Position numbers and translations under genes: made by a program. A stretch of 50,426 bases of DNA. Source: Mucilaginibacter rubeus. GTDB lineage: Bacteria > Bacteroidota > Bacteroidia > Sphingobacteriales > Sphingobacteriaceae. The notes beneath the pieces were generated by a model. It saw only the letters and a list, made by a program, of their open reading frames with translations. It was not told the DNA's origin and did not search any database. Below, piece after piece: positions 3,311 through 50,426 of the stretch (the first letter of the stretch is position 1; every line of letters begins with the position of its first letter). Location: the NCBI RefSeq assembly GCF_014643835.1, contig NZ_BMKD01000015.1, forward strand, positions 1-50,426, in the 5' to 3' direction.

Positions 3311-3346
3311 GATGACCATGAACCATAATCTATCAACCATGAACTA
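3311..3346. repeat. Copy of the GTTCATGG repeat family
   Basis: Contains two inverted GAACCAT/CATGAAC units directly after the stop of the aldolase/dehydrogenase gene. The same family forms the mnmD-cstB junction (38238-38372) and the outer shell of the nested palindrome at 42898-43351. Confidence 0.7.
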
Positions 3347-6726: not shown

Positions 6727-6815
6727 TGTCTGAACTCGAATTTGGGGGAATTAACGAATGAACAGAATGCTAATCAATTCAATAATTCTTTAATTCGTTT
6801 AATTCAGTTCAGACA
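6727..6815. repeat. TGTCTGAAC terminal-inverted-repeat element, copy A
   Basis: An 89-bp element with outward TGTCTGAAC(T)CGAATT and inward AATTCAGTTCAGACA ends and an AT-rich core containing AACAGAATGCTAA. The family also occurs at 43112-43203 and 50161-50240. This copy lies in the divergent promoter region between rhaT and the gluconokinase-like gene. Confidence 0.8.
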
Positions 6816-6856
6816 ATCCCGGTTCTGTTTATTATTTTGGCGTTAAATACATCACC

Positions 6857-22869: not shown

Positions 22870-22985
22870 GAGAGAAGCAGGAAGTCAAGAGTCAAGAAGC
22901 AAGAAAGAAGCAGGAAATTAAGAATTATGAGGCAAGACAGAATTCACCAATCTTGATTCTTGACTCTTGACCTCTTGTCTCTCTA
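22866..22985. repeat. Long imperfect hairpin of AAGTCAAGAGTC units
   Basis: The left arm (GTCAAGAGTCAAGAAGCAAG and similar) and the right arm (CTTGATTCTTGACTCTTGAC and similar) are reverse complements made of short AAGAGTC-type units. It begins at the rsh stop codon and ends before the fur promoter. The octamer-repeat hairpin inside valS (44030-44108) has the same architecture with a different unit. Confidence 0.75.
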
Positions 22986-28627: not shown

Positions 28628-28755
28628 CCCGTCCCATCAGAATCACTTGCAGAGGAACCTGATGTTCCGCGGGGACGTTCTTATAACTTCACTCCCCTCA
28701 AAAAATCCTCAATACCCATCCGTTTCTTGCCTTCTAACTGAATATCTTTTAATAA
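28628..28755 (-). pseudogene. Duplicate fmt 3' end plus adjoining REP
   Basis: A 128-bp segment repeated head-to-tail with 28756-28883. On the minus strand 28682-28755 encodes the same last 24 residues as fmt (LLKDIQLEGKK to FLRGVKL and stop). It differs at 10 bases in this part, each at a third codon position and each synonymous. The non-coding part (28628-28681) also matches the copy beside fmt, including the palindromic GTCCC...GGGGAC element. The fragment has no start codon, so it is not a gene. The pattern suggests recombination between related strains rather than a simple recent duplication. Confidence 0.85.
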
Positions 28756-28808
28756 CCCGTCCCATCAGGGTCTCTCGAAGAGGACCCTGGTGTTCTGCGG
28801 GGACGTTC

Positions 28809-29726
28809 TTACAACTTCACGCCCCTTAAAAAGTCCTCAATACCCATGCGTTTCTTACCCTCTAACTGGATGTCTTTTAACAATACAAAGCCATCTTTGG
28901 CTGCAAATTTTAAATAGGTTTTATTGTCGGTTAAAAAGCCGCCGGGTTGTATGGCCGGTTCTGATAATTGATATTCAGATGCATAAACTTTTAGGCTTTT
29001 GCCGTTAAGCTCGGTGTATGCGGTGGGTACAGGGCTTAGGCCGCGAATTTTGTTATAGATTGACAGGGCAGGCTGTGTCCAATCTATCCGGCAATCATCC
29101 TTAAAAATCTTTGGTGCGTGTTTTAATTCTGTCCCCTCGGCCAATTGCGATTGCGGGTGTTCGTTGTAACGTCCGCTCTCAACCGCTTTAACTGTTTTAA
29201 CCAGCAGCCCTGCGCCTTTGTTCATGAGGCGGTCATGTAATTCGCCGGCATCTTCATGGCCGGTAAGGGTTATTTTTTCGGTGAACAGGATGTTACCGGT
29301 ATCAATATCATGTTTTAAAAAAAAGGTGGTTACGCCGCTTTCTTTTTCGCCGTTAATCAGCGCCCAGTTAATTGGCGCGGCGCCGCGGTATTGAGGTAAT
29401 AATGAGGCGTGTAAATTTATGGTACCTTTGGCAGGCATGTTCCAAACAGCTTCGGGCAGCATCCTGAAGGCTACAACAACCTGCAGATCGGCTTTCAATG
29501 CTTTCAATTCGGCAATAAAATCTTCATTCTTAAGTTTTTCGGGTTGCAGCACTTTTAAGCCGTTAGCTACGGCATATTGTTTAACAGCCGACTCACTAAC
29601 TTTTTGTCCCCTTCCGGCTGGTTTATCAGGCGCTGTAACAACAGCAACGATGTCACTACCGGCTTTAATTAAAGCGTCTAACGAGGCAACGGCAAACTGG
29701 GGGGTACCCATAAATATAATTCTCAT
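28809..29726 (-). CDS. fmt: Methionyl-tRNA formyltransferase
   Basis: Formylates Met-tRNA(fMet) with 10-formyl-tetrahydrofolate for translation initiation. The 305-residue protein has the Rossmann-like formyl transferase domain with FMGTPQFAVASL at the N-terminus, the catalytic Asn/His region INLHASLLPQYRGAAPI (about 105-121), HDIDTGNIL and the C-terminal OB-fold domain (about 205-305) with IYNKIRGLSPVPTAY. Complete and of normal length. A second copy of its final 24 codons lies just downstream at 28682-28755. Confidence 0.96.
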   Translation of the reverse strand: MRIIFMGTPQFAVASLDALIKAGSDIVAVVTAPDKPAGRGQKVSESAVKQYAVANGLKVLQPEKLKNEDFIAELKALKADLQVVVAFRMLPEAVWNMPAKGTINLHASLLPQYRGAAPINWALINGEKESGVTTFFLKHDIDTGNILFTEKITLTGHEDAGELHDRLMNKGAGLLVKTVKAVESGRYNEHPQSQLAEGTELKHAPKIFKDDCRIDWTQPALSIYNKIRGLSPVPTAYTELNGKSLKVYASEYQLSEPAIQPGGFLTDNKTYLKFAAKDGFVLLKDIQLEGKKRMGIEDFLRGVKL

Positions 29727-37573: not shown

Positions 37574-38251
37574 TTAAAGTTTTACTGCCCTGAGCATTTC
37601 GCGTTTGCCGGGTGCTCCGGGTGCTTTCTCTATTTTAAAGCCCTGGCTTTTGAGCATGCGTTTCAGGTTGCCGGTAATGGCATAGGTAACAAACACACCA
37701 CCCGGTTTTAAAAAGCTAACGGTGTGACCGATGGCTTCTTCATCCCACATTTCGGGTTGATGGGCTGCGGCAAAGGCGTCGAAATAGATAATATCAAACT
37801 GCTCGTCTGTGTTAAAATCCAGCAGCTTGCTGTGAGCGATATGTAACTGTGTTGTGTTATTGATTTGAACTTTGGCCGTTAACGCAGCGGGATAACTGCT
37901 GTTGAATTGTTCCCATAACAGTTCCTGGATATATTGCTGGTAGCCGGTTTGCGCCATCATTTCGGCGCTTAAGGGGTAAGCTTCGATACCGGTGTAGTTA
38001 AGTTTTATTTGCGCGCCGGTACATGCATCGGCTGTTAACAGAAAGTTGAGCCCGGTGCCGAAACCAACTTCGAGGATACTAACCCCGCTGGTGTTATTCC
38101 GCTCCAGGAAATATTGTAAGCCTGATTTAACAAATACATGTAAGCTCTCCTGCAAAGCCCCGTGGCGCGAGTGGTAATGCTCACCAACTTCGGCATTGTA
38201 AATGGTATTGGAGCCGTCGGCTGTGGGGACTATGGTTAGTTCATGGTTCAT
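37574..38251 (-). CDS. mnmD: tRNA (mnm5s2U34)-methyltransferase MnmD
   Basis: SAM-dependent methyltransferase of 225 residues that completes the 5-methylaminomethyl-2-thiouridine modification at tRNA wobble position 34. Seen are ADGSNTIYNAEVGEHYHSRHGALQES near the N-terminus, the SAM motif ILEVGFGTGLNFLLT, the DIIYFDAFAAAHQPEMWDE catalytic block and the C-terminal KAPGAPGKREMLRA. It is the stand-alone methyltransferase, without the MnmC oxidase domain of enterobacteria. The first residues (MNHEL) are encoded by a GTTCATGG repeat that covers the start codon, so the true N-terminus could vary between strains. Confidence 0.93.
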   Translation of the reverse strand: MNHELTIVPTADGSNTIYNAEVGEHYHSRHGALQESLHVFVKSGLQYFLERNNTSGVSILEVGFGTGLNFLLTADACTGAQIKLNYTGIEAYPLSAEMMAQTGYQQYIQELLWEQFNSSYPAALTAKVQINNTTQLHIAHSKLLDFNTDEQFDIIYFDAFAAAHQPEMWDEEAIGHTVSFLKPGGVFVTYAITGNLKRMLKSQGFKIEKAPGAPGKREMLRAVKL

Positions 38252-38372
38252 GGATGATAGTTCATAGTTTTGGGTGGCATACTTAGTTCATGGTTTATGG
38301 ATGATGGTTCATAGTTTCCAAGACCTTATTGGCCATGAACCATGAACTATCATCCATGACCATTAGCCATGA
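38238..38372. repeat. GTTCATGG repeat cluster forming both flanking gene ends
   Basis: Two direct units (38238-38268 and 38285-38314, AGTTCATGG...GTTCATAG) are followed by an inverted unit (about 38332-38359). It spans the mnmD start (MNHEL) and the cstB-like stop (last residues VHG). The same family is at 3311-3346 and at the outer shell of 42898-43351. Confidence 0.8.
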
Positions 38373-39712
38373 ACCTCTTTCATCATCTCAGTCACCACCT
38401 CACCCAGGTCATAAACCGGTACGGCATTTATTGCAGCCGAAACAATGCTCACACCGGCAGCCGAACGATAGCCTGCAGCGCAATGCACTACGACAGGTTT
38501 ATCGGCAGGGATCTCACTAACGCGTTCGCGCAGTTCGGGCAAAGGTATACTAATGGCATTTTTAAAAACCCTGCCTGCCGCAACTTCTGCCTGATTACGT
38601 ACATCAACTATCGTGTAATCATTTTCATTTGCCCTGAAGGTGTCTAAATCAAGATCGGGGGATACTTCATTGGCGTTTACAGGAACTAACAATGCGCCTT
38701 TGATATTTTGTTCGTAGCCTATTTTGGCTGCTTTTTTAATCAGGGTGTCAAGCTTATCATCATTTTCGGCAATGAGGTAAAACTGCTCATCAGGGCCGAT
38801 AATGGAACCCAGCCATGTTTCAAATTTTTCACCATCCTGGAGGTTAATAGCGCCATGCAGGTGACCGCTCCTGAACTGTGCTTTGGGACGGCCATCAACT
38901 ACTAAAATGTCAGCTTCCAAAGCGCTGCCTTCCTCCATACGGGGTACAGCAGTAATGCTGTCCTCAAAACCTGGTACACCATTTTTATTCAACAGCACAT
39001 CACGGCCAAAGTATTTGGGCATAAAAGGCTGATCGGTGGTAAGCGTTTTAACAAATTCCAGTTCATCCATCAGTTGTAAGGCATAATTTTCACGCAGTTC
39101 GCGGCCAATGGTGCTTTCCAGCTCGGGGCTCATGTTTTTACCGCATAACGAACCCGGGCCGTGCGCCGGGTAAACCACTACGTTTTTGGGCAGGGTCATG
39201 AGTTTTTGCCGGGTGCTTTGAAACATCTGGCGGGCAAGTTCCTCTTTTTTTGCGGTAATGTTACCCACATTTTCCCGGAGGTCGGGTCGGCCTACATCCC
39301 CAACAAATAATGTATCGCCGGTAAAGACGGCGGTTTCGCGGCCTTCTTCATCTACCAGTAAAATACAGATAGAATCGGGCGAGTGACCGGGAGTATTGAT
39401 GGCTTTTAGTTTAATATCGTTAAGCTGGATAACGTCGCCGTCATCAAAAGTTTCGTGCGGATATGTTGCGCCGGTTAACTTGCTGCAATAAATTACAGCG
39501 CGTGTGGTTTCATGAATTTCGAGGTGCGAACTTACAAAATCCGCATGCGGGTGGGTTTCAATAACACCCACAATATCGGCGTCGTGCTGGGCCGCGAAAT
39601 CATAATAAGGCTGCGGGTTACGGGCCGGGTCAATAACTATCATTTTGCCCGTACGGATCACGGCATATGAACCATGCGCCAGGCCTTTATCGTAAAATTG
39701 TTGAATGATCAT
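38363..39712 (-). CDS. CstB-like persulfide dioxygenase-sulfurtransferase
   Basis: A 449-residue enzyme with three domains. A metallo-beta-lactamase fold (about 1-245) carries ETHPHADFVSSH, VVYPAHGPGS and FTGDTLFVGDVGR. A rhodanese-like domain without catalytic cysteine lies about 260-350. A C-terminal rhodanese domain (about 360-445) has the active Cys411 in HCAAGYRS. This order is that of Staphylococcus aureus CstB, which oxidises low-molecular-weight persulfides (including bacillithiol persulfide) to thiosulfate. It therefore likely detoxifies sulfide-derived persulfides in the cytoplasm. A TATCTTTG element lies 10 bp upstream (39723-39730). No CstR-like regulator gene is adjacent. Confidence 0.87.
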   Translation of the reverse strand: MIIQQFYDKGLAHGSYAVIRTGKMIVIDPARNPQPYYDFAAQHDADIVGVIETHPHADFVSSHLEIHETTRAVIYCSKLTGATYPHETFDDGDVIQLNDIKLKAINTPGHSPDSICILLVDEEGRETAVFTGDTLFVGDVGRPDLRENVGNITAKKEELARQMFQSTRQKLMTLPKNVVVYPAHGPGSLCGKNMSPELESTIGRELRENYALQLMDELEFVKTLTTDQPFMPKYFGRDVLLNKNGVPGFEDSITAVPRMEEGSALEADILVVDGRPKAQFRSGHLHGAINLQDGEKFETWLGSIIGPDEQFYLIAENDDKLDTLIKKAAKIGYEQNIKGALLVPVNANEVSPDLDLDTFRANENDYTIVDVRNQAEVAAGRVFKNAISIPLPELRERVSEIPADKPVVVHCAAGYRSAAGVSIVSAAINAVPVYDLGEVVTEMMKEVHG

Positions 39713-40584: not shown

Positions 40585-42660
40585 TTACCAGATCTTTGTC
40601 CTGTCTTCTGGTTTTTTATACATTTTATCGCCGGGTTTTACGTCAAATGCTTTGTACCATGCGTTGATATTGGTTATAGGCGCATTGGTGCGGAACTGCT
40701 CGGGCGAGTGCGGGTCGGTCAGGATCCTTTGCGCTGCCGATTCCGGAGTTTGTGATGAACGCCATACCTGTGCCCACGACAAAAAGAACCGCTGATCGGG
40801 TGTAAAGCCATCAATGGTATTGGCCGACTGGCCTTGTTTGGTTTTGCTGAATGCCTCGTAAGCAATGTTCAAACCACCAAGGTCGGCCAGGTTTTCGCCA
40901 AGGGTAAGTTTGCCGTTTACGTGCAGGGTATCAAGAACGGTAAAGGCATTGTATTGTTTCACCACCTGGTCGGCGCGCGATTTAAATTTATCGGCATCTT
41001 CTTTGGTCCACCAATCGCGCAGTGTGCCGTCGGCATCGTACTGGCGGCCCTGGTCGTCAAAGCCGTGGGTCATTTCATGGCCAATTACCGCTCCAATACC
41101 TCCGTAGTTAACGGCGTCATCGGCGTTAAAATCAAAGAACGGGAATTGAAGGATCCCGGCAGGGAACACAATTTCGTTATTAGTTGGGTTGTAATAAGCA
41201 TTAACGGTTGGCGGTGTCATTCCCCATCGGGTTTTATCAACCGGTTTACCTAATCGGCTTACATTAAAATTGTAGCGCCATTTGACTATTGCATGCAGGT
41301 TACTGAAGTAATCGTTACGGTTAATCACCATGCCATCGTATTTTTCCCAGTTGTCCGGATAGCCGATTTTTACGGTGAAAGCATTAAGTTTTTTAAGCGC
41401 GCGTTCTTTGGTTGCGGGGCTCATCCAGTCAAGGCGCTTAATCCTGTCGCCAAGAGTTTCTTTAAGGTTGTTTACTAAATCAACCATATATTGTTTGGCG
41501 GCCGGGGTAAAGTATTTTTCAACAAAAAGCTGGCCCAGTAATTCGCCAAGGTAGCTATCAACAAGGGCGCTCATGCGCTCAACGCGCGGTGTCTGTACTT
41601 TTTGACCGGTCAGCGCGCTGTTGTAAGCAAAGCTTGCGTTAGCAAAGTCGGAGCTTAAATAACTGGCTGTTCCTCTTAAAATATTCCATCGCAGGTATAT
41701 TCTCCAGTTAGCGATCGGGGTAGCTGCAAACAGCGAGTCGGTAGCCCTGAAAAACGAAGGCTGGCCAACAAGAATGCTGTCCTGTCCGCCTGCATTAAGC
41801 GCAGGAAGTATCTTTGACCATTTTAAATGTGGGGTTTGTTTTTCAAAATCTGCAATCAGGAACTTGTTGTAGGTTACATGCGGATCGCGCATGGCTACAC
41901 GGCTCAATTGCGCCTTAGCCCAGGTATATTCAAGGCCGTAAACTATAGCAGTGTTTTTGGCTGCTTCATCAGCACTGCTTCCGCTAAGGGTGAACAAAGT
42001 TGTGATCAGCTTTTTTAAGGCGTCCTGTGCTTTTTTTGAACGCGGATCGTTTTTGAGGTAATAATCCCTGTCGGGCAGGGTAGTGCCTCCCTGACCAAGG
42101 CTTATCACATATTTGTTTACATTCTTTTCATCCTGTTCAACCCCAAACCTGAAAATCGGCGCACTTATTCCGTTAACACGCTCGTAAATCAGTTCGTTAA
42201 TAAAGTCGTCAAGGGTTTTTAACCGGTTAATGCGCTCCAGGTCGGGTTTGATGGGGGCATAACCGTTTTTTTCGATGGTCAGGCTATCCATACCACTGGC
42301 GTACAAATCTCCTACAAGTTGTTTCAGGCTGCCTTTGGGTTGCGACGCTGATGTCTGGCTTACTTCATTCAGCAAGCCAATGAGCCTATCTGTATTTTCC
42401 TGGCGCAAAATATGGAAACTACCCCAGCGGGTTTCTTTAGCAGGGATGCCGTTTTGTTTTAGCCAGCCGCCATTGGCATATTCAAAAAAATCATCGCCGG
42501 GCTTTACGCTCAGGTCCATGTTGGCGGGATCGATAAATTTTTTAGGAGGGGCAGAGGTTTTGTGCCTGGATTTTGCGGGTTTGGGGCCATCTGCAGCAAA
42601 CACATTTACCGACATGCCAAGGCAGGCAGCCAGTAATAAACAGTTAAACTTTAATTTCAT
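40585..42660 (-). CDS. M13-family (neprilysin-like) zinc endopeptidase
   Basis: A 691-residue exported metallopeptidase of the M13 family (PepO/neprilysin). Signal peptide about 1-23 (cleavage after VFAA). An N-terminal M13 domain precedes the catalytic domain, with the zinc helix VIGHEMTHGFDDQG and the third ligand in GENLADLGG. NAYYNPTNNEIVFPAGILQFPFF is the substrate-binding NAYY motif, and CFDV-like WYKAFDVKPGDKMY closes the C-terminus. These enzymes cut oligopeptides, likely in the periplasm. It is monocistronic. Confidence 0.95.
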   Translation of the reverse strand: MKLKFNCLLLAACLGMSVNVFAADGPKPAKSRHKTSAPPKKFIDPANMDLSVKPGDDFFEYANGGWLKQNGIPAKETRWGSFHILRQENTDRLIGLLNEVSQTSASQPKGSLKQLVGDLYASGMDSLTIEKNGYAPIKPDLERINRLKTLDDFINELIYERVNGISAPIFRFGVEQDEKNVNKYVISLGQGGTTLPDRDYYLKNDPRSKKAQDALKKLITTLFTLSGSSADEAAKNTAIVYGLEYTWAKAQLSRVAMRDPHVTYNKFLIADFEKQTPHLKWSKILPALNAGGQDSILVGQPSFFRATDSLFAATPIANWRIYLRWNILRGTASYLSSDFANASFAYNSALTGQKVQTPRVERMSALVDSYLGELLGQLFVEKYFTPAAKQYMVDLVNNLKETLGDRIKRLDWMSPATKERALKKLNAFTVKIGYPDNWEKYDGMVINRNDYFSNLHAIVKWRYNFNVSRLGKPVDKTRWGMTPPTVNAYYNPTNNEIVFPAGILQFPFFDFNADDAVNYGGIGAVIGHEMTHGFDDQGRQYDADGTLRDWWTKEDADKFKSRADQVVKQYNAFTVLDTLHVNGKLTLGENLADLGGLNIAYEAFSKTKQGQSANTIDGFTPDQRFFLSWAQVWRSSQTPESAAQRILTDPHSPEQFRTNAPITNINAWYKAFDVKPGDKMYKKPEDRTKIW

Positions 42661-42813: not shown

Positions 42814-42897
42814 GACAATTTGAATGTTACATATATAATAACTTGTTAATTGTAAAAATATTGTGGGAGTGGGGTTGTTCATGGTTGATAGATCATG

Positions 42898-43351
42898 GTT
42901 CATGGTTTATAGATGATTGATCATGATTACATGTTGTAGTGATAATCATTTTACAATGTACTGGTTTGCGTTAGGGATGGTAGCGGATACCGGCCAAGTG
43001 GCTAAGGCCTTGTGCTGTATGAGCGTACAGCCCGGGCCGCAGGCAACGCCATTATTCTGAACCGGGATTTGGGTGGATTTTTGGGATTAATGGGATTTTC
43101 TTTTATGTTGTTGTCTGAACTCGAATTTTTTGAATTAAAGAAATAACAGAATGCTAAGTAAATTCAATAAATTCTTAAAATTCGTTTAATTCGAGTTCAG
43201 ACAATGGCATTACCTGCGGCCCGGGCTGTACGCTCATACGCCTGCAGGCATTACGCTCGTTGGCCGGTATCCGCTCCCATCCCTAATGCGGCCTCCGCTC
43301 TTGACCGATCAAAAACTATCGGTTTAAAACCATCATCTATGAACCATGAAC
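42898..43351. repeat. 454-bp triple-shell nested palindrome
   Basis: Three different inverted repeats are stacked inside each other. Outer shell (GTTCATGG family): 42898-42919 with 43330-43351, 20 of 22 pairs. Middle shell: 42971-42997 with 43260-43286 (26 of 27) and 43018-43043 with 43213-43238 (26 of 26, GC-rich). Inner shell: the TGTCTGAAC element, copy B, 43112-43127 with 43188-43203 (16 of 16). It fills the gap between the M13 peptidase and valS. An open frame from 43204 into valS is an artefact of this repeat. Confidence 0.92.
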
Positions 43352-43402
43352 TATATTCCCAAAAAAATCCCCCAACCTTTGGCTATGAACCGTTAACTAT
43401 CG

Positions 43403-43410
43403 TATTTTTG
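43403..43410 (+). promoter_or_regulatory. Promoter of valS
   Basis: TATTTTTG, exact TAnnTTTG match, 6 bp before the ATG at 43417, with TTTG at 43378-43381 as a possible -33 element. It supports the short start for valS. Confidence 0.65.
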
Positions 43411-43416
43411 CGCGTT

Positions 43417-46113
43417 ATGAGTATTGCTAAAACATATATCCCAAAGGAAACCGAAGAAAAATGGTACAGTTACTGGTTGCAGCACGGCTTTTTTAAGTCG
43501 GTGCCTGATGAGCGTGAGCCTTATACCATAGTCATTCCGCCGCCAAACGTTACCGGGGTTTTACACATGGGCCACATGCTTAACAATACCATACAGGATG
43601 TGCTGGTTCGCCGCGCCCGGATGAAAGGCAAAAATGCCTGCTGGGTTCCCGGTACCGACCACGCCAGTATTGCTACCGAGGCCAAAGTTGTCGCTATGCT
43701 TAAAGAGCGCGGCATCAGCAAAAAAGACCTTACCCGCGAAGAGTTTTTAACTTACGCCTGGGAGTGGAAGGAAAAATACGGCGGCATTATCCTGGAGCAG
43801 CTTAAAAAATTAGGTGCCTCCTGCGATTGGGACCGTACCAAATTTACCATGGACGAGAGCCTATCGGAAGCGGTTATTGATACGTTTATCCACCTGTATA
43901 AAAAAGGTTTGATCTATCGCGGTATCCGCATGATCAACTGGGATCCGCAGGGCAAAACCGCGGTGAGTGATGAGGAAGTAATCCGTAAAGAGGTTAATCA
44001 GAAGCTTTATTATATCCGCTATTTTGTGCAGTCCGAAAGTCCAGAAGTCGGAAAGTCGGAAAGTGGTGAAGCTTCTTCGGACTTCCGGACTTCCGGACTT
44101 CCGGACTCTCCTGGCTTCCTAACCATCGCTACCACCCGCCCGGAAACCATTATGGCCGATGCGGCTATCTGTATCAATCCTAATGACGAGCGTTACCTGC
44201 ACCTGCACGGTAAAAAGGTTTACATCCCGCTTATTAACCGCGAGATCCCGGTGATACTGGATGATTACGTAACTATGGATTTTGGTACCGGCTGTTTGAA
44301 GGTTACCCCGGCACACGATTTAAATGACTACGAACTGGGCCAGCGTCATAACCTGCCAGTTATTGATATCCTGAATGACGATGGCACGCTGAACGAGAAA
44401 GCGCAGATACTGGTTGGTGAAGACCGTTTTGCCGCCCGTAAAAAAATAGCTGTGCTGCTGGAAGAAGCCGGCGTACTGGAAAAAGTTGAAGAATATAAAT
44501 CGCAGGTTGGTTTCAGTGAACGTACCAACGCGGTTATTGAGCCAAAACTATCCATGCAATGGTTTTGCAAAATGGGCGAAATGGCCAAACCTGCTTTGGA
44601 TTACGTACTGAACGGAGAGATCAAATTGATCCCCGAAAAGTTTGTAAACACCTACCGCCACTGGATGGAGAATGTAAGGGACTGGAACATCAGCCGCCAA
44701 TTGTGGTGGGGACAACAGATTCCGGCATGGTATTTACCTACAGGCGAGTTTGTAATTGCCAAAAACGCCGAAGAGGCGCTGAAAGAAGCACAGCTTAAAA
44801 ATCCGGAATATACCGCTGCCAACCTTACCCAGGACGAAGACGTAGTTGATACCTGGTTTTCATCATGGTTGTGGCCTATCTCGGTATTTGATGGTTTTAA
44901 AGATCCTGATAATGCCGATATTAATTATTATTACCCAACCAATGATTTGGTTACCGCGCCCGAAATTTTATTTTTCTGGGTAGCCAGGATGATCATGGCC
45001 GGTCATGAGTTCAGAGGCGAAGTACCATTCAGAAACGTATACCTTACCGGTATAGTAAGGGATAAGCAGGGTCGTAAAATGTCAAAGCAATTGGGCAACT
45101 CTCCCGACCCGCTTGACCTGATAGCTCAATATGGTGCAGATGGCGTGCGCGTAGGTATGCTGTTATGCTCGCCTGCAGGTAACGATTTGATGTTTGACGA
45201 AAGCTACTGTAAACAAGGCAGCGGCTTTGCCAACAAAATATGGAACGCCTTTAAACTGGTAAAAGGCTGGGAGGTTGATGAAAGCCTTTCCAACCCTAAC
45301 GGCGTAGCCATTGAATGGTTTGCCAACAGGTTTAACCAGGCGCTAACCGAAATTGAAGCTAACTTTGCCCAATATCGTTTATCAGAGGCCTTAATGGATA
45401 CCTATAAACTGGTATGGGACGATTTTTGCGCATGGTACCTGGAGATGATCAAACCGGCTTATCAGCATCCTATTGATAAGGCTACTTATGCAGCTACTAT
45501 TCAATTCTTTGAAAATATTTTGAAGGTATTGCACCCTTTTATGCCGTTCCTTACCGAAGAATTATGGCATGATGAACTGTTTGGCGAACGTTCTGAAACT
45601 GACTGCTGTATTGTAGCGCAATTGCCCGCTATTGGGGAAATTAATTCACGTCTATTAAATGAAACAGAGCTTGTTAAAGATGTGGTAACCAACATCAGAA
45701 ACACCCGCAAAACAAAACAAATTTCTGACAAAGAGCCGCTTGAGTTATTTGTTAAATCAAATTCAGGGATCAATTACGGCCAGTTCGAAGCTATCATTAC
45801 AAGGCTTGCCAACATCAGCAAATTTGAATCAGTAGCCGATAAAATTGAAGGGGCTATTAATTTCTTGGCCTCAACAGATGAGTTTTATATTCCTTTCAGC
45901 GAAGAAATTGACCCGGTTGCCGAATGTGTGAAACTGAAAAAAGAGCAGGAATACCTGTTAGGTTTCCTGAAATCGGTTAATGCAAAATTGGGTAACGAAC
46001 GGTTTATGGCTAATGCAAAACCCGAGATTATTGAGGTGGAGCAAAAGAAAAAGGCCGATGCCGAAGCTAAATTAACCATCATTGAAGAAAACTTAGCTGC
46101 TTTGGCTTGCTAA
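43417..46113 (+). CDS. valS: Valyl-tRNA synthetase
   Basis: Class Ia aminoacyl-tRNA synthetase of 898 residues charging tRNA-Val. The HIGH motif appears as GVLHMGHMLN (about residue 50), KMSKS as KMSKQLGNSPDP, and the CP1 editing domain has TTRPETIMADAA and GTGCLKVTPAHDLNDYE. The anticodon-binding helices and a C-terminal coiled coil are present. I take ATG at 43417. The open frame extends 71 codons upstream but only through the nested palindrome, and the promoter lies just before 43417. Odd: about residues 205-231 are encoded by a repeat hairpin (44030-44108), lengthening a loop before FLTIATTRPET. Confidence 0.95.
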   Translation: MSIAKTYIPKETEEKWYSYWLQHGFFKSVPDEREPYTIVIPPPNVTGVLHMGHMLNNTIQDVLVRRARMKGKNACWVPGTDHASIATEAKVVAMLKERGISKKDLTREEFLTYAWEWKEKYGGIILEQLKKLGASCDWDRTKFTMDESLSEAVIDTFIHLYKKGLIYRGIRMINWDPQGKTAVSDEEVIRKEVNQKLYYIRYFVQSESPEVGKSESGEASSDFRTSGLPDSPGFLTIATTRPETIMADAAICINPNDERYLHLHGKKVYIPLINREIPVILDDYVTMDFGTGCLKVTPAHDLNDYELGQRHNLPVIDILNDDGTLNEKAQILVGEDRFAARKKIAVLLEEAGVLEKVEEYKSQVGFSERTNAVIEPKLSMQWFCKMGEMAKPALDYVLNGEIKLIPEKFVNTYRHWMENVRDWNISRQLWWGQQIPAWYLPTGEFVIAKNAEEALKEAQLKNPEYTAANLTQDEDVVDTWFSSWLWPISVFDGFKDPDNADINYYYPTNDLVTAPEILFFWVARMIMAGHEFRGEVPFRNVYLTGIVRDKQGRKMSKQLGNSPDPLDLIAQYGADGVRVGMLLCSPAGNDLMFDESYCKQGSGFANKIWNAFKLVKGWEVDESLSNPNGVAIEWFANRFNQALTEIEANFAQYRLSEALMDTYKLVWDDFCAWYLEMIKPAYQHPIDKATYAATIQFFENILKVLHPFMPFLTEELWHDELFGERSETDCCIVAQLPAIGEINSRLLNETELVKDVVTNIRNTRKTKQISDKEPLELFVKSNSGINYGQFEAIITRLANISKFESVADKIEGAINFLASTDEFYIPFSEEIDPVAECVKLKKEQEYLLGFLKSVNAKLGNERFMANAKPEIIEVEQKKKADAEAKLTIIEENLAALAC
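44030..44108. repeat. Octamer-repeat hairpin inside the valS coding sequence
   Basis: The left arm contains degenerate units of GGAAGTCC (AGTCC, GAAAGTCC, AGAAGTCG, GAAAGTCG). The right arm has exact tandem GGACTTCC units (ending near 44106). Together they form an imperfect hairpin with a short GTGAAGCTTCTTC turn. It is in frame, translated as a Ser/Glu/Gly-rich loop in ValRS. Confidence 0.88.
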
Positions 46114-48059: not shown

Positions 48060-48239
48060 GCCATTGTTGGTGTTGTCACCAACAATTCCTAATGCTCTTT
48101 TACGCCATTGTTGGTGTTGTCACCAACAATTCCCAATCCTCTTTTAATCACGTTATTTCATATGACCAGTTAAGCTCCCGGTTGCTTATTTAATGCTATA
48201 ACTGCGTGGAGTAGAGTTGTTGGTGACAACACCAACAAC
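48060..48239. repeat. Three copies of the TTGTTGGTG/CACCAACAA hairpin
   Basis: A perfect 9-bp stem with TTGT loop occurs at 48065-48086 and 48109-48130 as part of a 44-bp tandem repeat (units from 48060 and 48104). A third copy in inverted orientation is at 48217-48239. The array fills the gap between the converging kinase and GH2 genes. The third, inverted copy can also pair with either of the first two. Confidence 0.88.
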
Positions 48240-50072: not shown

Positions 50073-50160
50073 AAGGTAATGTTACAATTGATGAGGTTAT
50101 GAAGGCCAAAATAGGGAATTGATAACTGTTATCATAACATTTTATTGGGAAATAGGATGT

Positions 50161-50240
50161 TGTCTGAACCCGAATTTATTGAATTTAGGGAACGAGCAGA
50201 AAATGCGATACACATTCCATGAATTCTTCAAATTCGTTTC
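50161..50240. repeat. TGTCTGAAC element, copy C, right end missing
   Basis: It keeps the left end TGTCTGAACCCGAATTT and the core up to AAATTCGTTT, but the expected AATTCG...GTTCAGACA end is replaced by CCCCCATGGCGCAAGTG. This suggests truncation by the sequence that leads into the insertion sequence. Confidence 0.75.
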
Positions 50241-50246
50241 CCCCAT

Positions 50247-50340
50247 GGCGCAAGTGTTGTGCGGCTGTTAGAAGGGCGGATCACTTGTGACTATAAAAAT
50301 TGTCTTGTCCTGAAATAGGTTTACACATCAGTAAACAAAA
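50247..50340 (+). mobile_element. Left end of an insertion sequence
   Basis: GCGCAAGTG...CACTTGTG (50249-50290) is followed by TTGTCCTGAAATAGGTTTAC and an AT-rich leader to the transposase ATG. The blocks GGCGCAAGTGTTG, CACTTGTG and CTTGTCCTGA recur at 26292-26375. The exact terminal inverted repeat cannot be fixed because the other end is outside the window. Confidence 0.45.
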
Positions 50341-50426
50341 ATGGAAAGATATTCAAAAGTGTATGGGGGTAAATGGCAGAGCCAGTACAGTGAGGAGTTT
50401 AAGCGAAAAATTTGCCAGGAATATTT
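50341..50426 (+). CDS. Transposase N-terminus, cut by window edge
   Basis: An open frame of 28 codons from ATG at 50341 to the window end. The peptide (MERYSKVYGGKWQSQYSEEF then KRKICQEY) has the SEEFKRK-type start of helix-turn-helix transposase subunits (IS3 OrfA-like) common in Bacteroidota. Only the N-terminus is visible, so family and integrity are not certain. Its position right after a truncated repeat fits an insertion. Confidence 0.6.
   Translation, partial: MERYSKVYGGKWQSQYSEEFKRKICQEY

Follow-up and report, generated by a model that had tools for sequence, protein, structure and literature searches.

Nested repeats between the M13 peptidase gene and valS

The window analyzed here is the whole 50,426-nucleotide stretch of Mucilaginibacter rubeus DNA. 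Between two divergent genes, for an M13-family metallopeptidase and for valyl-tRNA synthetase (valS), three unrelated inverted repeats lie one within the other at 42877 to 43354. The best relatives of this valS gene were found in Mucilaginibacter. The features of the locus, together with related features elsewhere in the window, are given in Table 1. The nest had been reported in an earlier note made from the sequence alone, and our analysis found it present and far beyond chance.

Table 1. Position of the genes, shells and related repeats in the window (G, genome; L, locus)
Feature	Position	Strand	Remark
Further P palindrome	6727..6817		Relatives carry other arm types here
Inverted 7-mer array (AAGTCAAG/CTTGACT)	22871..22984		Same class as outer shell
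Inverted GTTCATG/CATGAAC array	38237..38375		Class and unit of outer shell
M13-family metallopeptidase gene	40585..42660	-	Divergent neighbor of valS
TTAATTGTAAAAATATTGTG	42846..42865	-	Recognizable across many relatives; 5' anchor, located in 31/60 spacers; possible promoter region for the peptidase gene
5' arm of outer shell (GTTCATG heptamers in a degenerate array)	42877..42925	+	Also in G130 and G001; array without inner layers in L040 and L044
Middle shell, 5' copy of Flavo-1-like element R84	42966..43057 (ends approximate)	+	
Half P palindrome (TCTGAACCGGGATTT...)	43057..43102	+	Adjoins 5' R84; also in G130 and G001
P palindrome of the inner shell (TTGTCTGAAC...GTTCAGACAA)	43111..43204		Adjoins 3' R84; not in G130 and G001 at the valS site
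Middle shell, 3' copy of R84	43199..43291 (ends approximate)	-	Faces 5' copy
3' arm of outer shell (heptamer array, CCATGAAC)	43328..43354	-	
TATTTTTG, promoter-like box	43403..43410	+	6 nt upstream of valS ATG at 43417
valS, valyl-tRNA synthetase	43417..46113	+	Relatives searched from 43420
In-frame inverted octamer array (AGTCCGAA.../...CGGACTTC)	44030..44119	+	Inside valS; class of outer shell

The outer arms, 42877-42900 and 43328-43351, were 92% complementary over 24 nt, and the arrays to which they belong extended to 42925 and 43354. The middle arms were made of two parts, 42968-42997 / 43260-43289 (30 nt, 93%) and 43003-43053 / 43203-43253 (51 nt, 84%), and the inner arms were 43111-43136 / 43179-43204 (26 nt, 85%). 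The earlier note had described the middle shell as a GC-rich family of 26 to 27 bp. Middle arms of that family do exist, but the shell is larger, a single unit of about 90 bp, here called R84, present as two inverted copies. The three centers, said to be nearly coincident, lay within about 42 bp of each other, at about 43116, 43129 and 43158; this closeness is unremarkable because 149 nt separate the 51-nt middle arms and the inner palindrome is 94 bp long. Copies of the outer family were found elsewhere in the window as claimed, at about 3311-3346 and at 38237-38375, and so were copies of the inner family (P palindromes), at 6727-6817 and 50160-50239, the latter truncated. Two features went unmentioned in the earlier note: the half P palindrome (43057-43102) next to the 5' middle copy, and the contact of the inner palindrome with the 3' middle copy. 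In the segment from 50160 to 50426, the P palindrome was truncated near its right arm, and the reading frame that followed resembled, by eye, the start of a transposase. The window also contained tandem duplications at 28628-28880 (128 bp) and 48060-48146 (44 bp).

When the segment from 42871 to 43371 was folded alone, the nested layout was recovered both as DNA (-131.7 kcal/mol; shuffles -55.5, sd 4.6) and as RNA (-245.7 kcal/mol; shuffles -134.5, sd 6.3), and in neither case did any of 100 shuffles fold equally well. The stable fold that the earlier note had expected was therefore borne out by computation, but a folded valS leader RNA made from the nest is unlikely: the block would lie outside the valS transcript because it is upstream of the promoter-like box, 6 nt before the ATG. 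This box, TATTTTTG, matches what we take to be the Bacteroidota -7 box consensus, TAnnTTTG. An Rfam search of the whole window gave no match at gathering level. Matches to miRNA families on the nest, seen at relaxed thresholds, were far below cut-off and were taken as artefacts of a long hairpin.

The layers at valS spacers of relatives

The valS spacers of relatives were compared with that of the window. Sixty spacers were examined, including the window; 31 were anchored and classified, and the other 29, having no 5' anchor, were left unclassified. The layers occurred both separately and combined. Among the 31 spacers, 4 had the three shells together (window, G103, G044 and G014), 2 had the outer and middle shells with no inner one (G130 and G001), 11 had the array only, with no R84 or P match, 2 had only an inner-type palindrome (G081 and G040), 1 had a partial R84 (G086), and 11 had none of the three layers at the thresholds used. 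One of the array-only spacers, that of G129, keeps by eye an R84 remnant of about 10 bp. In L194 and L207, arrays visible by eye were below the period threshold. Over the 400 bp of valS that precede the in-frame array, G130 and the window shared 96% identity, and both G130 and G001 had about 115 bp of other DNA at the position of the P palindrome of the window.

These orthologous spacers support the claim of the earlier note that the layers are independent and were built stepwise, and the separate search for each shell in relatives did find sites with the outer shell only and with the outer plus middle shells. The mixed states refute a single element in which the three shells always occur together. 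The valS spacers compared showed neither a clean empty site nor a duplicated target.

Inverted arrays of 7- and 8-mers

In the outer shell, GT-units form the 5' arm and CATGAAC the 3' arm. Inverted heptamer arrays without inner layers were found at the same place upstream of valS in other Mucilaginibacter, some with a different unit. By eye, the unit was GTTCATG in L040 and L044, AGTCCAT in L041, L051 and L055, and GTCATTN in L047. A long, almost perfect array of the octamer GTCCGAAA was also seen in L044 of M. phenanthrenivorans, at 62-194.

Periodicity was scanned in 81 sequences of 601,486 bases in total, comprising the window and 80 valS-centered loci. There were 66 segments of period 7 and 17 of period 8, compared with 0 to 5 for each of the periods 4 to 6 and 9 to 13; period 14, a multiple of 7, had 56. 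A control in which single bases were shuffled within 60-base blocks gave 0 to 2 segments. An inverted partner was present within 500 bp for 29 of the 66 period-7 segments and 6 of the 17 period-8 segments. A stricter scan of the window alone gave no segment of period 7 and two of period 8, while the arrays are detected by the looser scan. A fixed 15-base pattern of the GTTCATG unit was present in 32 of 41 genomes of the genus, and the richest of them had 159 overlapping matches; the reversed pattern, used as a control, matched once in each of two genomes.

The arms of these arrays have a preferred orientation. The 5' arm was richer in RGT than in ACY in 35 of 35 inverted arrays, some of which were counted two or three times, and after deduplication (n = 14) the split was 13 versus 0. 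Among 246 inverted repeats without periodicity in these sequences, the corresponding split was 47 versus 40. We know of no mechanism for this rule. Judged from these sequences, the outer shell is a member of a class of inverted 7/8-mer arrays in which the unit at a given site varies from species to species. The arrays at 22871-22984 and 38237-38375 lie at or beside gene ends. Arrays of the CAGTTGGCAGT type were seen by eye to start about 10 bp or less from the 3' end of R84 in L008, L019, L112, L143, L146, L163 and L165. Among the open-licence papers listed, no title or abstract opening described these arrays, or R84, in Mucilaginibacter.

The in-frame array inside valS

A search for ungapped repeats found no inverted pair at 44010-44140 in valS; the in-frame array becomes visible with gapped arms and as two arrays. 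The same site in other Sphingobacteriaceae carried arrays of AGTATCA, AGTCTTA, AGTTGTC or GAGTG, or a short loop, in the 102 of 111 loci that were readable; the samples overlap in species (L033/L210, L032/L209 and L042/L218 carry identical inserts), and such counts are not of independent species. In most of the 13 inserts compared, the two arms resembled each other and not the arms of species with a different unit, as illustrated by the window, with an arm-arm score of 39 versus 10 against L041. Inserts with a common unit matched between species (window versus L200, 53), and the arm-arm scores were weak, 13 to 15, in L034, L060 and L201. In nine close relatives, the valS flanks were 88 to 96% identical to the window, and the insert matched over only 45 to 70% of the longer insert. 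A second site with a period-7 array was seen deeper in valS of other Sphingobacteriaceae (L036 4356, L038 4346, L041 4352, L051 4304 and L053 4352).

R84, a Flavo-1-like element

R84 is a dispersed element of about 90 nt with a fold of its own, and the middle shell consists of two facing copies. A DNA search found it in 17 of 19 genomes of the same genus and in 1 of 12 others. With a covariance model, among 150 candidates scored per genome, 82 (G001), 43, 44, 33, 1 and 68 (G039) copies were counted in six Mucilaginibacter genomes and none in two genomes of other families. At least four independent pairs of R84 copies were no more than 500 bp apart and faced each other, and no other orientation occurred among the matches listed; for 48 of 52 copies, there was no full-length partner in the locus examined.

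RNAalifold, applied to an alignment of the 52 copies, gave a stem of helices 5-3-2-2-4-3 and a small hairpin, and this fold covaries. As many as 98.6% of 1144 cells were paired, and 9 of 22 pairs had both sides changed, these values being for a structure derived from the same alignment and for copies that are related within one genome. One pair was A-U in 22 copies, G-C in 16, U-A in 8, C-G in 3 and other in 3. Cells with both sides changed numbered 57, compared with 11.0 in shuffles. None of 500 shuffles reached the double-change counts or the covariation score, 33 of 500 reached the number of pair types, and slid structures paired 26 to 41% of cells. The folding energy of single copies was ordinary (z of -0.8 for the window copy and -0.5 for an L003 copy), and the structure is seen through covariation alone. 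Strong covariation of this kind would also fit selection on an RNA.

The helix layout of R84, compared by eye, contains that of the Flavo-1 consensus (RF01705), 3-2-2-4. The Flavo-1 model gave no match to the R84 copies of the window, even at an E value of 10 or less, nor to 13 other R84 loci at an E value of 1 or less. R84-like copies scored 32.9 bits (E 1.2e-5) in L039, which is upstream of valS in M. rivuli, and 26.9 in L196. As the Rfam gathering cut-off is 42 bits, R84 is not a Flavo-1 member by the Rfam rule, hence the term Flavo-1-like. In genomes rich in R84, the model matched once in G001 (82 R84 copies) and not at all in G039 (68 copies). The reciprocal search with an R84 model, R1, gave a match at the same place in 2 of 5 Flavo-1 loci over the cut-off and 6 of 7 below it. 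Flavo-1 is an Rfam candidate RNA, and no stated function for it was found in the literature searched. A table of Weinberg et al. (2010) marks it as RNA and not as cis-regulatory (PMC2864571). According to a transcriptome study of F. psychrophilum, Flavo-1 matches seemed to occur on the sense and the antisense side of transcribed regions alike, with many beyond them (PMC9723704), a placement that fits a DNA repeat.

R84 cores at identical positions differed in subtype between relatives, by eye. The 16-bp palindrome CCCGTCAGCTGACGGG was present in both R84 arms in G103 and G014 versus the 3' arm only in G044, which indicates that the arms exchange sequence. About ten R84 copies of G001 were seen in a longer common context with TGACGT-type ends and partly alignable flanks. 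Loci with this context include L003, L004, L007, L009, L010, L016, L018 and L030, several beside a CGTCATTGCGAGG...GATTGCTTCGT palindrome.

P palindromes and their position relative to R84

P palindromes share conserved ends, TGTCTGAA and TTCAGACA, and their arms are variable. The end pattern was found at 67 places in 14 of 41 genomes, and the reversed pattern at none. At site 6727, seven relatives displayed at least three arm types: G018 was window-like, G001 and G081 shared another type, and G130 had no typical ends. The site in G044, G014 and G103 contained one P nested in another, as seen by eye. The window arms at 6727 scored 36 against G018 and 34 against G014, and 25 against each other. 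Because they match these relatives better than each other, a joint change of both arms is evident in no types other than those of G001/G081 and G130. An empty site at 6727 was sought in 10 relatives; most of them already had a palindrome there, and G086 and G040 were too divergent to read.

P ends adjoined R84 in 16 of 52 copies, a count that omits L001, L193 and L197 (5 of 57 copies), orthologues of the valS locus. P at R84 ends exceeded control positions. On the 5' side, 10 of 52 copies had a P end within 20 bp, and 0.09 was expected from 6149 control windows. On the 3' side, 7 of 52 had one within 22 bp, with 1.2 expected; L153 was not P on inspection, leaving 6, a modest excess in which two of the six are the window's own copies. 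From the P side, a pattern search located 11 P elements in G001, G014 and G039, and 4 of these were no more than 3 bp from an R84 copy among the matches listed. This proximity could partly reflect a shared confinement to spacers.

Origin of the nest

We consider it likely that the nest is a mosaic in which short, dispersed DNA repeats of three kinds, all able to form hairpins, accumulated successively in a permissive spacer between divergent genes. An inverted heptamer array would have come first, followed by two facing copies of the Flavo-1-like R84 and then by a P palindrome adjoining one of the two R84 copies at its end. The concentric look would come from outer arms at the spacer edges, R84 copies that face each other and a tendency of P toward R84 ends. 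The layers would have arrived, in this order, by insertion of non-autonomous elements, and the changes of arms and cores in place would reflect conversion among copies and template switching between arms. The nest as a unit would have no function.

The earlier note had proposed instead that palindromes were inserted, layer by layer, into the loops or centers of existing palindromes. The order of the layers fits such growth from the outside in, and the palindromes within palindromes at 6727 are a second case seen by eye. However, P adjoins the ends of R84, and 13 of the 16 copies that it adjoins had no second full-length R84 in the locus examined and so no loop of the size of the shell. No R84 lay between two P ends (0/52), and no complete P lay inside R84 (0/30, a small sample that includes some palindromes chosen for closeness to R84). 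In 5 of 52 R84 copies, an inward-type P end was the closest one within 150 bp, 1 upstream and 4 downstream, and never on both sides. At valS, P adjoins the 3' R84 in the window versus the 5' R84 in G103, G044 and G014, and G081 and G040 carry P with no older shell around it. Between two facing R84 copies, a P at either inner end is bound to look nested, and the concentric look at valS is accounted for without loop targeting. We therefore regard loop insertion as improbable.

The very stable fold, the covarying pairs of R84 and the location between divergent genes would suit a regulatory structure, either a cruciform or a leader RNA, kept by selection because it controls valS or the peptidase gene. 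Related genomes, however, lack one, two or all of the layers, the block should lie outside the valS transcript as argued above, and the F. psychrophilum matches are said to occur in either orientation, many outside transcribed regions (PMC9723704); such a role for the nest has a low probability. That the shells form one composite mobile element, like a large REPIN or a MITE, is in our opinion highly improbable. R84 and P are often neighbors, and the four R84 pairs among the matches listed are all facing, as in REPINs, but each family was found without the others at many loci, the states at the valS site are mixed, and a query of the middle and inner shells (42960-43300) was full-length in G001 only at valS among the best 40 of 125 candidates. 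Growth of the nest mostly in place, by slippage and template switching between imperfect arms with little insertion, agrees with the joint change of both arms at fixed sites in several species and with the arm-to-arm copying seen. Template switching is reported to homogenize arms (PMC8604942), and slippage of heptamers is a published proposal (PMC4679880). The outer arrays may still owe most to growth in place. As an origin of the whole nest, we find it quite improbable, R84 and P being recognizable genome-dispersed families that are not expected from growth in place.

For the mosaic that we prefer, template switching and 7-nt slippage are the proposed source of the changes in place, and the rule of arm orientation would be explained by neither. 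A broader reading is put forward tentatively. Mucilaginibacter and its relatives may hold an unnamed class of inverted 7/8-mer arrays, the units of which are swapped in place between species, both arms together, at fixed sites (upstream of valS and within its frame), always with RGT in the 5' arm. With the arms or cores of P and Flavo-1-like elements replaced too, a shared process might rewrite hairpins, either by copying templated on the hairpin or through an enzyme whose substrate is the single-stranded hairpin, and Flavo-1 might be one of them, dispersed DNA and not a regulatory RNA.

The nest can be read as a record of how spacer DNA grows in these Bacteroidota. Flavo-1 gains a testable alternative, as kin of a dispersed DNA hairpin that numbers 33 to 82 copies in all but one of the six genus genomes searched and has other repeats at its ends. 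The inverted 7/8-mer arrays, with sequences that switch in place, even inside an essential synthetase gene, and with a constant orientation of the arms, raise the questions of what copies one arm to the other and of why RGT is in the 5' arm.

Comparison with known systems

The palindromic elements of Rickettsia (RPEs) are sequence families. An RPE, like the valS array, is a palindrome inserted into a protein gene without loss of the reading frame, but the unit at the valS site varies with the species. R84 has nearly the same helices as Flavo-1 (RF01705), 3-2-2-4 bp with small internal loops, and differs by an extra outer stem, by a small hairpin and by the P elements that adjoin it. The TAACTGA heptanucleotide arrays of Beggiatoaceae, cyanobacteria and five Bacteroidetes share with the outer arrays a 7-nt period and an intergenic position near starts; they are nearly all direct repeats of one fixed heptamer (PMC4679880), whereas here there are inverted pairs, many units and one orientation of the arms.

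The earlier note had called a mechanism that targets hairpin loops new to its author. Mobile DNA entering palindromes is already established, since IS1397, IS621 and ISKpn1, and likewise ISPpu9, are described as targeting REP palindromes (PMC1525189). These IS bear a transposase, whereas at valS short repeats adjoin each other. In a comparison with MITEs, P has conserved inverted ends, and no empty site, duplication or parent transposon was found.

None of the seven Y1-transposase (PF01797) loci of G001 had R84 or P beside the gene; a 22-bp piece of R84 lay about 1.1 kb away in L135. The RAYT-type genes of this genome were flanked, by eye, by other short palindromes, and a RAYT/Y1 transposase found no support as a partner of R84 or P. 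R84 and P units are also longer than those of REPs and REPINs, and facing doublets are not the main form of R84, with its four independent pairs among the matches listed and the scarcity of full-length partners noted above. What they share with the REP, BIME and REPIN sequences that go with RAYT genes (PMC2817692, PMC3116915) is that they are short, dispersed and hairpin-forming, often mosaic, and found in facing pairs. Different palindromic families cluster in spacers, as in BIMEs, and the single locus at valS is an ordinary, BIME-like mosaic.
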